DNA of 11,240 nucleotides from Synechococcales cyanobacterium PMM_0073. Lineage in GTDB: Bacteria; Cyanobacteriota; Cyanobacteriia; Elainellales; Elainellaceae. Both the position numbers and the translations under genes were made by a program. Under the pieces are notes generated by a model that saw only the letters and a program-made list of their open reading frames with translations, was not told where the DNA came from and ran no database searches. Every line of letters starts with the position of its first letter. Position 1 is the stretch's first letter. Positions 2,112 through 6,636 of this stretch are shown one piece after another. The DNA lies in NCBI GenBank assembly GCA_949127695.1, contig CASBQH010000475.1:1-11240 (forward strand), given 5' to 3'.

Positions 2112-2792
2112 TTACTCAGATTGATTCACCACCTGAATTTGCTGCATCAGCCAGTTCGCTGCGGCTGTATTAGTTTCTTCTGTCAAGCGCTCCAGCGTCT
2201 GCGTGACTAGCTCAATAGATAGACCGGGCAACGTTTGCGAGACCTGAATCGGCTCATAGGCTCCATCTGGCGTTAAGCCAAAGGCAAACAGCCGCGTCCC
2301 TTTAACATCAATTACCCAATATTCCGCAATGCCTAAGCTGGCGTAGAGCTGCTTCTGCTCATCCAGATCCAGGCTAAGAGAAGTATCGGCAATTTCGCCC
2401 ACCAGATCCGGCAACCGATGCCGCGTTAGTTCAATGCGGCGTGGCTCTCCGGGTCGCCATCTAGGAATATTGTCGCCCTGATACAGCACCAAATCTGGCG
2501 CACAGGCATGAGTTTCGGGTAGATCAATCAGGCAGCGGCCAAAGGATTGCAGTACAGGTTCAGGATAAATAGATGCCCAGATGAAGAAAATTGCTGTCAT
2601 TAAATCGCTAAACGAAGCGTGCCCCGGTCCTTCAGTTCCCATATCTGCCCAGAGCCATCCTTGATAAAACGCAATTTTACGCCAGTTTAGCTGGGGATCT
2701 GTGCTGTCTCGCAGCGCCAAATAGTCTTGCCAAGTGGCATCCCGCCGCTGCAAAATGTCCGAATCAGTAAACTTCTGAAAAGCAATTGTCAT
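2112..2792 (-). CDS. Uma2 family (DUF820) nuclease-fold protein
   Basis: This 226-residue protein belongs to the Uma2/DUF820 group, which has a PD-(D/E)XK nuclease fold and is greatly expanded in cyanobacteria. Its cellular role is generally unknown. Visible signatures are PDLVLY with PD at 99-100, then LVGEIADTSLSLDLDEQKQLY with E133 and K147, then GIAEYWVIDV at 154-163. These are the usual acidic and lysine positions, so the active site looks intact. The N-terminal 40 residues, with WQDYLALRD, also fit the family. The gene follows the RND exporter on the same strand after 50 bp. That gap holds a consensus -10 box, and AAGGCAGG lies 7 bases upstream of the ATG, so it probably has its own promoter. 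It meets the glycosyltransferase tail to tail. No functional link to either neighbour is visible. Confidence 0.9.
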   Translation of the reverse strand: MTIAFQKFTDSDILQRRDATWQDYLALRDSTDPQLNWRKIAFYQGWLWADMGTEGPGHASFSDLMTAIFFIWASIYPEPVLQSFGRCLIDLPETHACAPDLVLYQGDNIPRWRPGEPRRIELTRHRLPDLVGEIADTSLSLDLDEQKQLYASLGIAEYWVIDVKGTRLFAFGLTPDGAYEPIQVSQTLPGLSIELVTQTLERLTEETNTAAANWLMQQIQVVNQSE

Positions 2793-2842: not shown

Positions 2843-5554
2843 TCACGGTTTCCGCCACCTCAGCCGCCACTCGTCCAGCAGATCGTAGATCACCGGCACC
2901 ACCAGCAAACTGAGCAACGTGGACGTCACCAGTCCGCCCATAATCGCCACCGCCATGGGAGCGCGCAGCTCAGCCCCAGCCCCCAAGCCCAGCGCAATCG
3001 GCAGCATTCCCAGAATGGTCGAAGCAGTCGTCATTAAAATTGGGCGGAGCCGAATGGGCACGGCTTCCAGGATGGCCGCACGGCGCGGCAGTCCGGCCTG
3101 TCGCTGTTGCTTGATGTAATCGACAATCAAAATCGCGTTTTTGTTGGTGAGGCCAAGCAAGAAGATAATCCCAATCAGCGAGATCATGCCAAAGTCGCTC
3201 TGAGTCACTAACAGACCCAGCATTGCCCCCACCACCGCCAGCGGCAGCGACAGAAAAATTACCAGCGTATCCACCCAGCTCCTAAACAGCCAGAGCAGCA
3301 CCAGCAGAATGCAGAGCACCGAGAGCGCCAGCGTTGCGCCAAAGCCACCCAAGACCTCACCAGCTCTAGCCGAATCGCCGCCCAAATCCAGCTTCAAATC
3401 AGCAGGCAGAATCGCTTCAGCTTCGGCCACCGCTCGATCTGTGGCTTCCCCCAGCGTCAAGCCCTGCCCCAAATTAGCGCTGACCACCGCCAGCCGCTGA
3501 CCGTTAGAGCGCTTGATCTCTAGGATATTGCCGCCTGCGTTGCGCTCACCGGTTGCCGTCACATCCTCAAAGCCAGCGATTGCTTCGAGCTTTGCTTTCA
3601 GGGCGCTGGCCATCTGGTCGAGCGCGGCCAAATCATCCCCCACAATTTTGATCTGCACTGGCTTCTCACCGCCCGTATCGACAAACTGAATATCTTCAAC
3701 GCTGGTGGTAACGCCCGCTGGCGTAGGCAGGGTTTGCCGAAACTCATCCTGAACCGTAGCCGTATTGGCCGTTCTCTTTGCTTTCAGCTTGACGTAGATT
3801 AAGCCTTTATTCGGCTCTCCCTGCTTTGTGCCCACAACGGTAAAGGTACTCTCTACCTGGGGTGACTGACGCAGGTGATCATCCAGCGTTTCGGCCACTT
3901 TGAGCGACTCTGCCAGCGGATTAAACTGCGGCGGCTTAGCAATAGTCTGACTAGCAGCAGTTTGATTGGCAGCAGTTTGAGGGCTAGAAGCCGATCTCGA
4001 AAGCTGAGGTAATGGAGCAGTATATGCAACATTAAACTCACCGCGATCAAGTTTAGGAATAAAGCCTTTGGGAATGAGCGGAATTAAGGCCAGTCCGGCC
4101 ACAAAGCTAAGGCAGGCAATGCCCAGCACCCAGCCGCGATGCCGCAGCGACCAGTCCAGCAGTCGGCGGTAGCTGTGATTAATTCGATCTAGCCAGTGCG
4201 GCTGATTCGCGACTTTGGACGGCTTCAGCCAGTAAGCCGCCAGCAGCGGCGAGAGCGTCCGCGCCACCAGCAGCGAGGTGATCATGGCCGCCGCAACGGT
4301 GATGCCAAACGGCTTAAAAAACTGCCCCAGCACGCCGCCCATTAAGCCAACGGGTAGAAAGACCGCAACGGCTGTGAGCGTGGCTGCGGTGATGGTCAGG
4401 CCAATTTCTTGGGTGGCGATGATGGCGGCCTGTCGGGGTGGCTCGCCCTTTTCCAGATGGCGGGAAATATTTTCCACCGCTACAATTGCATCATCAACAA
4501 TATTGCCAATTGCTAGCGCTAAAGCCAGCAGCGTCAGCGTCTCCAGATTAAAGCCATAGATCGCCATCACAATAAAAGTGCCCAGCAGCGACAGCGGAAT
4601 TGCCAAAGCCGAAATGAGCGTGGCGCGCCAGTTTCGCAAGAACGGAAAAATCACCACAACCGACAAAATAATGGCCTCGATCAGCGCCTGAATGGTTTCG
4701 CCTGTGGCCGCTCGAATATAGTTAGCCTGCGTGGCGGCAATGCTAATCTCTAAATCTGGGAACTGCTGCCGCAATTGGCTCACCGTATCTTCCACCTGCC
4801 GCACCACTTGCAGCGCGTTGGCATCTCCCTGCTTCACCACCTGAATTGCCACAGCTTCTGCGCCGTTGAATCGGACGATTGTGGGAGCTACTGTCGGGGC
4901 TGCTGGAATAGAAGAGGGCACTTTGGAGGGCGGCACTTTAGCAGGCACTTTAGCAGGCGGTGCCTTGAGCGGTTCACCCAGCAGCGTTACCTTCAACACC
5001 TCTGGCAGCTTGGCAATCGCCGGAATAATCTGGGCTTGAGTAATGCTGCTAATCTCGCTCAGTGGCTCAGTCTCACTCTGAATGGCGTAGCTGATTACGG
5101 CAGCTTCGTTCAGGTTAATCGGAATAATTTCTGGCGCGGCTCCAGGCAAATCCAGATTTTGTAAGCTGGCCTCAGTGGCCTGTCGAGCCTCTTCTAAGTC
5201 AGTACCGACCGCAAAATTCAGGCTGACCACCGAACGGCCTGGATAGGTGAGCGAATCGGTGCGTTTTAGCCCTTCCAGGCTTTGCAGCTTAGCCTCCAGC
5301 GGCAGAGTTAGCTCTGTTTCAGTCTCTGCGGCGCTGGCTAGAGGCGCGGCTGCGTTGACCACCACCACCGGGAAGGTAATATCAGGGAACAGCGCATAGT
5401 TCAACGAGCGAAAGGCCAGCAGCCCCGCGACGGTCACGGCAATCCAAAACCCCAGCGTCAGCCAGGAATACTGAATGGCCAGCTGCGAAATATTGAATCG
5501 CTCGCGCCGAGCAGATTGGGGAGCAGACTGGGGTGGTTGCTGGGGTTCAGCCAT
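2843..5554 (-). CDS. RND-type efflux permease lacking both docking subdomains
   Basis: A 903-residue inner-membrane exporter of the AcrB/ACR_tran superfamily, whose usual length is about 1,030-1,060. TM1 is at about 30-50, TM2-6 at about 288-443, TM7 at about 474-496 and TM8-12 at about 738-892. The proton-relay residues are present: GNIVDDAIVAVEN with D354/D355 in TM4, and GLTNKNAILIVDY with K805 in TM10. Porter elements PN1, PN2, PC1 and PC2 are recognisable (FPDITFPVVVV at 56-66, VRFNGAEAVAIQVV at 227-240, FTVVG at 571-575). Compared with remembered AcrB, the segment between VTLLGE (about 194) and VRFNG (227), normally the roughly 95-residue DN docking subdomain, is a Pro/Ala/Lys linker. 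In the second half the DC subdomain is missing at about 668-690. A further low-complexity insertion lies at 516-546. No membrane-fusion or outer-membrane partner gene adjoins it; upstream is the divergent nadC. The start is ATG 5554, without a clear ribosome-binding site. Substrate unknown. Confidence 0.92.
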   Translation of the reverse strand: MAEPQQPPQSAPQSARRERFNISQLAIQYSWLTLGFWIAVTVAGLLAFRSLNYALFPDITFPVVVVNAAAPLASAAETETELTLPLEAKLQSLEGLKRTDSLTYPGRSVVSLNFAVGTDLEEARQATEASLQNLDLPGAAPEIIPINLNEAAVISYAIQSETEPLSEISSITQAQIIPAIAKLPEVLKVTLLGEPLKAPPAKVPAKVPPSKVPSSIPAAPTVAPTIVRFNGAEAVAIQVVKQGDANALQVVRQVEDTVSQLRQQFPDLEISIAATQANYIRAATGETIQALIEAIILSVVVIFPFLRNWRATLISALAIPLSLLGTFIVMAIYGFNLETLTLLALALAIGNIVDDAIVAVENISRHLEKGEPPRQAAIIATQEIGLTITAATLTAVAVFLPVGLMGGVLGQFFKPFGITVAAAMITSLLVARTLSPLLAAYWLKPSKVANQPHWLDRINHSYRRLLDWSLRHRGWVLGIACLSFVAGLALIPLIPKGFIPKLDRGEFNVAYTAPLPQLSRSASSPQTAANQTAASQTIAKPPQFNPLAESLKVAETLDDHLRQSPQVESTFTVVGTKQGEPNKGLIYVKLKAKRTANTATVQDEFRQTLPTPAGVTTSVEDIQFVDTGGEKPVQIKIVGDDLAALDQMASALKAKLEAIAGFEDVTATGERNAGGNILEIKRSNGQRLAVVSANLGQGLTLGEATDRAVAEAEAILPADLKLDLGGDSARAGEVLGGFGATLALSVLCILLVLLWLFRSWVDTLVIFLSLPLAVVGAMLGLLVTQSDFGMISLIGIIFLLGLTNKNAILIVDYIKQQRQAGLPRRAAILEAVPIRLRPILMTTASTILGMLPIALGLGAGAELRAPMAVAIMGGLVTSTLLSLLVVPVIYDLLDEWRLRWRKP
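3911..4003 (-). repeat. Low-complexity insert in the exporter's PC1 loop
   Basis: This encodes residues 518-548 of the RND protein, a Ser/Ala/Gln/Asn-rich stretch (with QTAANQTAASQT) in the loop between the first strand and helix of the second porter half, where AcrB-like proteins have a short PPGTS-type turn. At DNA level GCAGCAGTTTGA occurs at 3954-3965 and again at 3969-3980, a 15-bp period, so the insert may have grown by in-frame duplication. Confidence 0.7.
4880..4969 (-). repeat. Pro/Lys-rich linker in place of the DN docking subdomain, with 12-bp tandem repeat
   Basis: This encodes residues 196-225 of the RND protein, built from repeated (A/S)KVP units (PAKVPAKVPPSKVPSS). GCACTTTAGCAG is repeated in tandem at 4933-4944 and 4945-4956, with a diverged copy next to it. 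The reading frame is kept. It sits where other RND exporters carry the docking subdomain with its inter-subunit arm. Confidence 0.75.
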
Positions 5555-5775: not shown

Positions 5776-6636
5776 ATGAATGCCGTTCTCCCCCCATTCA
5801 TTTTGCTCGACCGACTGCTGCAAGATTGGCTGCTCGAAGATATTGGCCGGGGTGATCGGACGACGCAGGCGCTCTGGCTCGAAACCCCGCCGATGGGGCA
5901 GGCGACCTGGACGGCCAAAGAAGCAGGCATCATTGCCGGACTGCCGATTGCCGCACGGGTGTTTGCGCTCTTAGATCCAGCGGTGCAGTGGAAAGCTACC
6001 GCAGCAGAAGGAGCCTGGTGCGAGCGCGGCCAGCAGATTGCTAAAATTCAGGGCAGGCTAGATGCGCTGCTCACAGGCGAACGGGTGGCGCTTAATTTGG
6101 CAATGCGGCTGAGCGGAATTGCCAGCCTCACCCATCAATACGCAGCGCAAATTGCCGATCTGCCAACTCAGCTAGTCGATACGCGCAAAACAACGCCGGG
6201 GCTGCGAATCCTGGAAAAATATGCCACCCAGGTCGGCGGAGCTATGAACCATCGGCTCGGTTTAGATGATGGCGTGATGATTAAAGATAATCATATTGCA
6301 GCAGCGGGCGGCATCACCCAGGCTGTTCAAACGATCCGGGCGCGCATTCCTTATCCGCTGACTGTTGAGGTCGAAACTGAGAATATTATTCAGGTAACTG
6401 AAGCATTAAAATCAGGCGCAGATATTATTATGCTAGATAATATGCCGCTTGAGCAGATGCAGCAGGCCGTTCAGATGATTCGAGCAGCAAACTCACGGAT
6501 TAAAATAGAAGCATCAGGCAACATTACGCTAGAGAGCATTCGAGCCGTTGCCGAGACTGGCGTAGACTATATTTCCAGCAGCGCCCCGATCACCCGCTCT
6601 ACCTGGCTAGATTTGAGTATGCGAATTTTGGGTTGA
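5776..6636 (+). CDS. nadC: Nicotinate-nucleotide pyrophosphorylase (carboxylating), quinolinate phosphoribosyltransferase
   Basis: This cytoplasmic enzyme converts quinolinate and PRPP to nicotinate mononucleotide, CO2 and pyrophosphate, in de novo NAD synthesis. Its 286 residues match the usual length. The N-terminal domain has WLLEDIGRGDRTT (18-30) and a WTAKEAGIIAGL barrel-sandwich segment. GERVALN is at 101-107. The barrel carries the substrate-binding signatures DTRKTTPGLR (135-144), HRLGLDDGVMIKDNH (159-173), EVE (198-200), MLDNM (219-223) and EASGN (245-249). It ends in SAPITRSTWLDLSMRI, a form typical of cyanobacteria. The start is ATG 5776, just ahead of the conserved LLDRLLQDWLLEDIG; another ATG at 5780 is out of frame. 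No strong ribosome-binding site is seen. The gene faces coaE tail to tail, 11 bp apart. A tandem repeat upstream may be an operator. Confidence 0.97.
   Translation: MNAVLPPFILLDRLLQDWLLEDIGRGDRTTQALWLETPPMGQATWTAKEAGIIAGLPIAARVFALLDPAVQWKATAAEGAWCERGQQIAKIQGRLDALLTGERVALNLAMRLSGIASLTHQYAAQIADLPTQLVDTRKTTPGLRILEKYATQVGGAMNHRLGLDDGVMIKDNHIAAAGGITQAVQTIRARIPYPLTVEVETENIIQVTEALKSGADIIMLDNMPLEQMQQAVQMIRAANSRIKIEASGNITLESIRAVAETGVDYISSSAPITRSTWLDLSMRILG

Follow-up and report, generated by a model that had tools for sequence, protein, structure and literature searches.

The stretch of DNA analysed here (the window) is an entire contig of 11,240 b (C475) from a draft cyanobacterial genome of 3.6 Mb that is 78% complete (G000), and it contains, on the minus strand at 2843..5554, an open reading frame for a 903-aa RND permease of the HAE-1 type that lacks docking subdomains. 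The protein matches PF00873 (ACR_tran) at 621 bits against a cut-off of 28, compared with 66 bits for Pfam MMPL, and the solved structures matched by its sequence are HAE-1 pumps, with MdtB the best. Its neighbours are genes that we take, from their sequences, to be nadC-like (5776-6636, plus strand) and Uma2-like (2112-2792, minus strand; no NCBIfam match). A 679-aa open reading frame at 58-2097 on the plus strand resembles, by eye, a two-domain glycosyltransferase. No adaptor gene and no hopanoid gene adjoins the permease within the 11,240-b window.

The permease retains the whole working core of an RND pump. A preliminary description of this DNA had reported TM1-TM12, the TM4 DD pair, K805 and four porter elements, all of which are confirmed by alignment and by a confident single-chain structure prediction (pLDDT 89.5). 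In the model, the four porter modules are complete, namely PN1 (residues 62-147; 5114..5371), with its full b-a-b-b-a-b secondary structure, PN2 (residues 152-275; 4730..5101), PC1 (residues 506-620; 3695..4039) and PC2 (residues 633-725; 3380..3658), all on the minus strand, as are the features that follow. The proton relay consists of D354-D355 in TM4 (4490..4495), K805 in TM10 (3140..3142) and the TM11 Arg/Thr pair, R835 (3050..3052) and T842 (3029..3031), which are the counterparts of AcrB R971 and T978. What is missing are the docking subdomains DN and DC, which alignment reduces to loops of 26 and 12 residues versus 92 and 89 in AcrB. By alignment and model, the DN remnant is a Pro/Ala-rich loop of low confidence inside PN2 (residues 193-225; 4880..4978), and the DC remnant is a loop inside PC2 (residues 668-679; 3518..3553). 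The predicted structure agrees with this reduction, upholding the earlier claim that both subdomains are lost, and rules out that DN or DC is folded from elsewhere in the chain. PC1 also carries a low-complexity insert (residues 516-546; 3917..4009) that is weakly conserved and differs among members, as seen in the alignment and the dN/dS comparison. In known pumps, DN and DC contact the adaptor and the channel, and the AcrB trimer is locked by the DN arm; because that lock needs the DN arm, the oligomeric state of the present permease may differ from that of AcrB. Operation without a TolC-type channel would fit this anatomy.

The architecture is shared by a whole family. Members were aligned in 326 rows (313 distinct sequences), comprising 86 loci, the window included, and 240 database proteins that were chosen for similarity, since they were taken as best-scoring matches. 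Every row has lost both DN and DC, and the five relay residues are invariant throughout. Between fixed anchors, members have 9-42 residues at DN and 19-35 at DC, where seven full-length references have 95-101 and 110-113, respectively, with no intermediate spacing among the 326 member rows. In a quick tree built without the docking columns, 24 diverse docking-less members form one clade (SH-aLRT 100) against 26 full-length pumps, nested inside the HAE-1 rows near full-length cyanobacterial pumps. Judged from these sequences, a single loss of the docking subdomains accounts for the data. The distinct subclass that had been suggested is therefore real in the sense of a monophyletic group with both deletions in common, and the comparison of homologues that had been proposed as a check speaks for shared deletions rather than a one-off degenerate gene. 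The closest named relative by permease protein, among the matches listed, is Pegethrix bostrychoides (L048; 78% identity), and the pair gives a dN of 0.149, a dS of 0.94 and a dN/dS of ~0.16, constraint being strongest in the TM parts and weakest in the DN remnant and the PC1 insert. Shared architecture, this constraint and the confident fold rule out a degenerate or misassembled gene. Members include proteins of Synechocystis PCC 6803 (P0153, 890 aa), Nostoc punctiforme (P0103), Crocosphaera and the endosymbionts of Epithemia and Rhopalodia, and one database source labels a member 'multidrug efflux pump subunit AcrB'. In the Rhopalodia/Epithemia diatom endosymbionts the pump is kept (P0201, P0203) on contigs of ~2.8-3.0 Mb. 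Cyanobacterial titles were found on all of the best 80 of 286 loci matched in genome contigs, and no plasmid match covering 80% of the query occurred among the 5000 best-scoring records.

Adaptor genes were sought with a home-made adaptor profile against the open reading frames in available flanks. Of 24 full-length RND loci, 17 gave an adaptor (3 of these contain profile seeds), compared with 8 of the 93 docking-less loci, among which 70 are flanked by 5 kb or more on each side. None of the latter adaptors lies nearer than 4.9 kb in the available flanks, so that what had been noted for the window, a permease with no adjoining adaptor gene, extends to the subclass (0/93 loci). At least one RND-adaptor pair (L001) is encoded elsewhere in the window's genome. 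The permease shares with the HAE-1 permeases (AcrB, AcrD, MdtB/C) the fold, the 12 TM helices, the four porter modules, the proton relay and the position in the tree, but differs from them in lacking DN/DC and an adjoining adaptor and in its linkage to hopanoid genes. It thus descends from HAE-1 pumps but lacks two features of the HAE-1 family, the docking subdomains and the adjoining adaptor.

Hopanoids are bacterial sterol-like lipids that underlie the hopane fossil record. At least one hopanoid gene lies in the flanks, up to 10 kb, of 79 of the 86 deduplicated loci (75 if the HpnG-like family is not counted), and the figure of 79 is unchanged when all open reading frames are counted, overlapping antisense ones included. 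The 80 named loci, which scored best among 286, are mostly Nostocales and hence not independent. The usual arrangement has an hpnG-like gene diverging from the pump, with hpnA and then hpnH following the pump. HpnA occurs in 69/86 loci (downstream on the same strand in 68, at a median distance of 36 b), the HpnG-like gene is divergent upstream in 70/86, and HpnH, HpnB and SHC (squalene-hopene cyclase) are found in 64, 18 and 15 loci, respectively. A Scytolyngbya locus (L039) carries, in order, hpnB, SHC, hpnG-like, pump, hpnA, hpnH, a squalene-synthase-like gene and hpnJ. Hopanoid gene names were assigned with NCBIfam at this locus only, where HpnA scores 477 bits (cut-off 368), HpnH 558 (225), SHC 914 (431), HpnB 576 (379) and HpnJ 805 (578), and the HpnG-like protein 76, below its cut-off of 187; names at the remaining loci rest on BLAST likeness. 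The seven loci without any hpn gene are those of the window and its genus mate Pegethrix, together with L040, L044, L050, L070 and L093, and L050 and L070 have <0.5 kb of downstream sequence. Linkage to some hpn gene recurs in 12 family-level groups (f1, f2, f11, f14, f16, f21, f27, f28, f29, f30, f34 and f37), through the HpnG-like gene alone in f11 and f27. Phylum-wide, the pump is within 15 kb of HpnH in 28 of 76 genomes, of SHC in 15 and of either in 38; the other 38/76 pump genes, among them that of the window, have neither HpnH nor SHC within that distance. The hopanoid tie lies outside the window and for that reason was not visible in the preliminary description. Two further conserved neighbours were observed. 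A protein of ~290 aa (family f9), ferritin/di-iron-like by eye, lies near the pump at 15 loci, L057:345-1220 (minus) among them, in most cases separating the pump from the hpnG-like gene, and is a possible new hopanoid-linked enzyme. A radical-SAM-like protein (by eye) of 371-416 aa (family f23) follows hpnH downstream of the pump at six loci, one of them L059:15097-16245 (plus).

The distribution of the pump follows that of SHC. At a pump search threshold of E 1e-120, 386 genomes of the phylum yielded the pump in 76 (broken in G432 and in two pieces in G208), HpnH in 84 and SHC in 87 (86 over cut-off). SHC accompanies the pump in all 76 cases, and the 299 genomes without SHC are all pump-free (Fisher p 4e-69, a statistic that ignores shared ancestry); HpnH is present in 73 of the 76, missing in G105, G149 and G432. 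In a set of 60 relatives that partly overlaps with the 386, the pump was found in 10 and SHC in 18 (17 over cut-off), and all pump genomes were again SHC-positive. In the window's family of 36 genomes, several of them incomplete drafts, the pump set equals the SHC set (G000, G002, G014 and G028), the matches in G014 being partial, with SHC below cut-off. Both states are present in genera g1 and g12, with pump and SHC matched within the genus, and in genus g49 of the larger set, three genomes have both (G081, G240, G387) and two have neither (G076, G096). In G432, the pump and HpnA are in pieces (L177, G432:C1:4341000-4360500), SHC, elsewhere, carries stops, and HpnH was not found; the hopanoid gene set of this genome seems to decay together. 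A single in-frame TAG was seen in the SHC matches of G147, G149, G283, G285, G301, G359 and G404 (f28, g66), and genome G198 keeps both SHC and HpnH.

The pump is missing in 11 of the 87 SHC genomes of the larger set and in 8 of the 18 of the smaller one, G051 being in both, so hopanoid production does not always require it. In G210 (L161) and G421 (L166), hpnH-hpnA faces an hpnG-like gene with no pump in the usual slot between them. The docking-less pump was absent from stretches around SHC or HpnH in G065, G210, G141, G051, G421 and G343, which represent 6 of the 11 (the others being G289, G228, G295, G328 and G085), and from stretches of 7 other SHC-positive, pump-negative genomes of the 60. 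The RND open reading frames in these stretches are full-length only. One in G210 lies ~3.8 kb from SHC (22% identity), another in G210, on a different contig, is accompanied by an adaptor, and one in G065 lies ~21 kb from SHC.

The known hopanoid transporter is the proteobacterial HpnN (HAE-3), which resembles the present subclass in being of RND type, in its tie to hopanoid genes and in having no AcrB-type docking funnel. Linkage to and co-occurrence with hopanoid genes, an HpnN trait, are thus found in the subclass, the linkage at loci other than the window's. The window permease itself is ruled out as an HpnN by its score, since the HpnN model TIGR03480 gives 29.2 bits against a cut-off of 751.85. 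HpnN dimerises and carries helical inserts that make up PD3/PD4 (PMC8277102), and no such extra periplasmic helices occur in the model of the window permease. The same source gives MmpL3 two PD modules, as opposed to the four porter modules here. HpnN structures were absent among the 50 fold matches listed for the permease, which carries no weight either way. MmpL3 and other HAE-2 lipid exporters are likewise of RND type and are not known to need TolC. In a search of 80 of the 87 SHC genomes, which among pump-negative SHC genomes covered the 11 of the 386 set only, the HpnN model passed its cut-off in none, as it did in none of 14 named control genomes, so that the search had no positive control; weak HpnN cross-matches at E 1e-5 occurred in 37/80. 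Every predicted hopanoid producer among the alphaproteobacteria is reported to carry hpnN (PMC12583986), outer-membrane hopanoids of R. palustris require HpnN (Doughty 2011, cited in PMC12583986 and PMC3883690), and hopanoids of Nostoc punctiforme akinetes are located mainly in the outer membrane (PMC3883690). The akinete hopanoids and the lack of an HpnN over cut-off indicate that a route for hopanoids to the outer membrane is required in cyanobacteria, where the known one seems to be missing. In the literature searched, which was mostly open-access, we found no explanation of that route, no RND transporter named in cyanobacterial hopanoid clusters and no docking-less HAE-1 pump.

Because the permease occurs only in genomes with SHC in the sets searched and often beside hopanoid genes, it is probably a hopanoid transporter; linkage together with presence and absence supplies a specific substrate hypothesis. 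We consider it likely that the protein is an RND transporter of HAE-1 type, driven by the proton motive force, whose docking subdomains were lost once and which became dedicated to hopanoids in cyanobacteria. With slightly less confidence, we favour the further reading that it is the missing cyanobacterial hopanoid transporter, a drug-type HAE-1 pump that shed its funnel once, became TolC-independent and converged on HpnN's job from another RND branch. Hopanoids, probably bacteriohopanepolyols, would be taken up by the porter out of the inner membrane's outer leaflet. Proton influx via the TM4/TM10 relay would drive the porter cycle and push them out, as what is known of HAE-1 pumps and HpnN suggests, and they would be set free in the periplasm or handed to a carrier bound for the outer membrane, with no sealed TolC tunnel. 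Such a pump would work like HpnN and MmpL3 without belonging to either family.

A different substrate that the cells make or need along with hopanoids would also be compatible with the linkage and co-occurrence. The strongest competing explanation, which we regard as unlikely but deserving of weight, is accordingly that the permease acts in the hopanoid pathway without carrying hopanoids to the outer membrane, by flipping a precursor or exporting a by-product or another needed lipid. The substrate is not named by either line of evidence and 11 of 87 SHC genomes manage without the pump, as this explanation would have it, but lipophiles are what RND permeases with a complete porter usually export. 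The outer-membrane location of akinete hopanoids (PMC3883690) and the absence of an HpnN over cut-off from 80 SHC genomes, with controls that did not pass either, also speak for export of hopanoids.

Considerably less probable is a pump that is still tripartite, its porter gripped directly by an adaptor encoded elsewhere; the RND-adaptor pair elsewhere in the window's own genome means that adaptors exist in the cell, but the elements that contact adaptor and channel in known pumps are missing throughout the family, and the 93 loci, 70 of them with flanks of 5 kb or more on each side, showed no adaptor gene closer than 4.9 kb. A general exporter of drugs or solvents sitting by chance in hpn clusters would suit the nearest sequence families, which are multidrug permeases, as well as the AcrB label of one database source. 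We hold it to be very improbable given the 299 SHC-less genomes without a pump, the matched presence and absence within genera and the co-decay in G432. A broken or misassembled pump gene, which the short length and the window without partner genes might suggest, is scarcely credible against an invariant relay and common architecture in 326 rows, a dN/dS of ~0.16 and a confident fold.

If a hopanoid transporter of HAE-1 descent is indeed what these genomes encode, loss of the docking funnel can turn an AcrB-type pump into a lipid transporter, and hopanoid transport by RND proteins arose twice. Annotations like 'multidrug efflux pump subunit AcrB' would then need correcting. The orthologue in Synechocystis PCC 6803 makes the idea directly testable in a standard strain.
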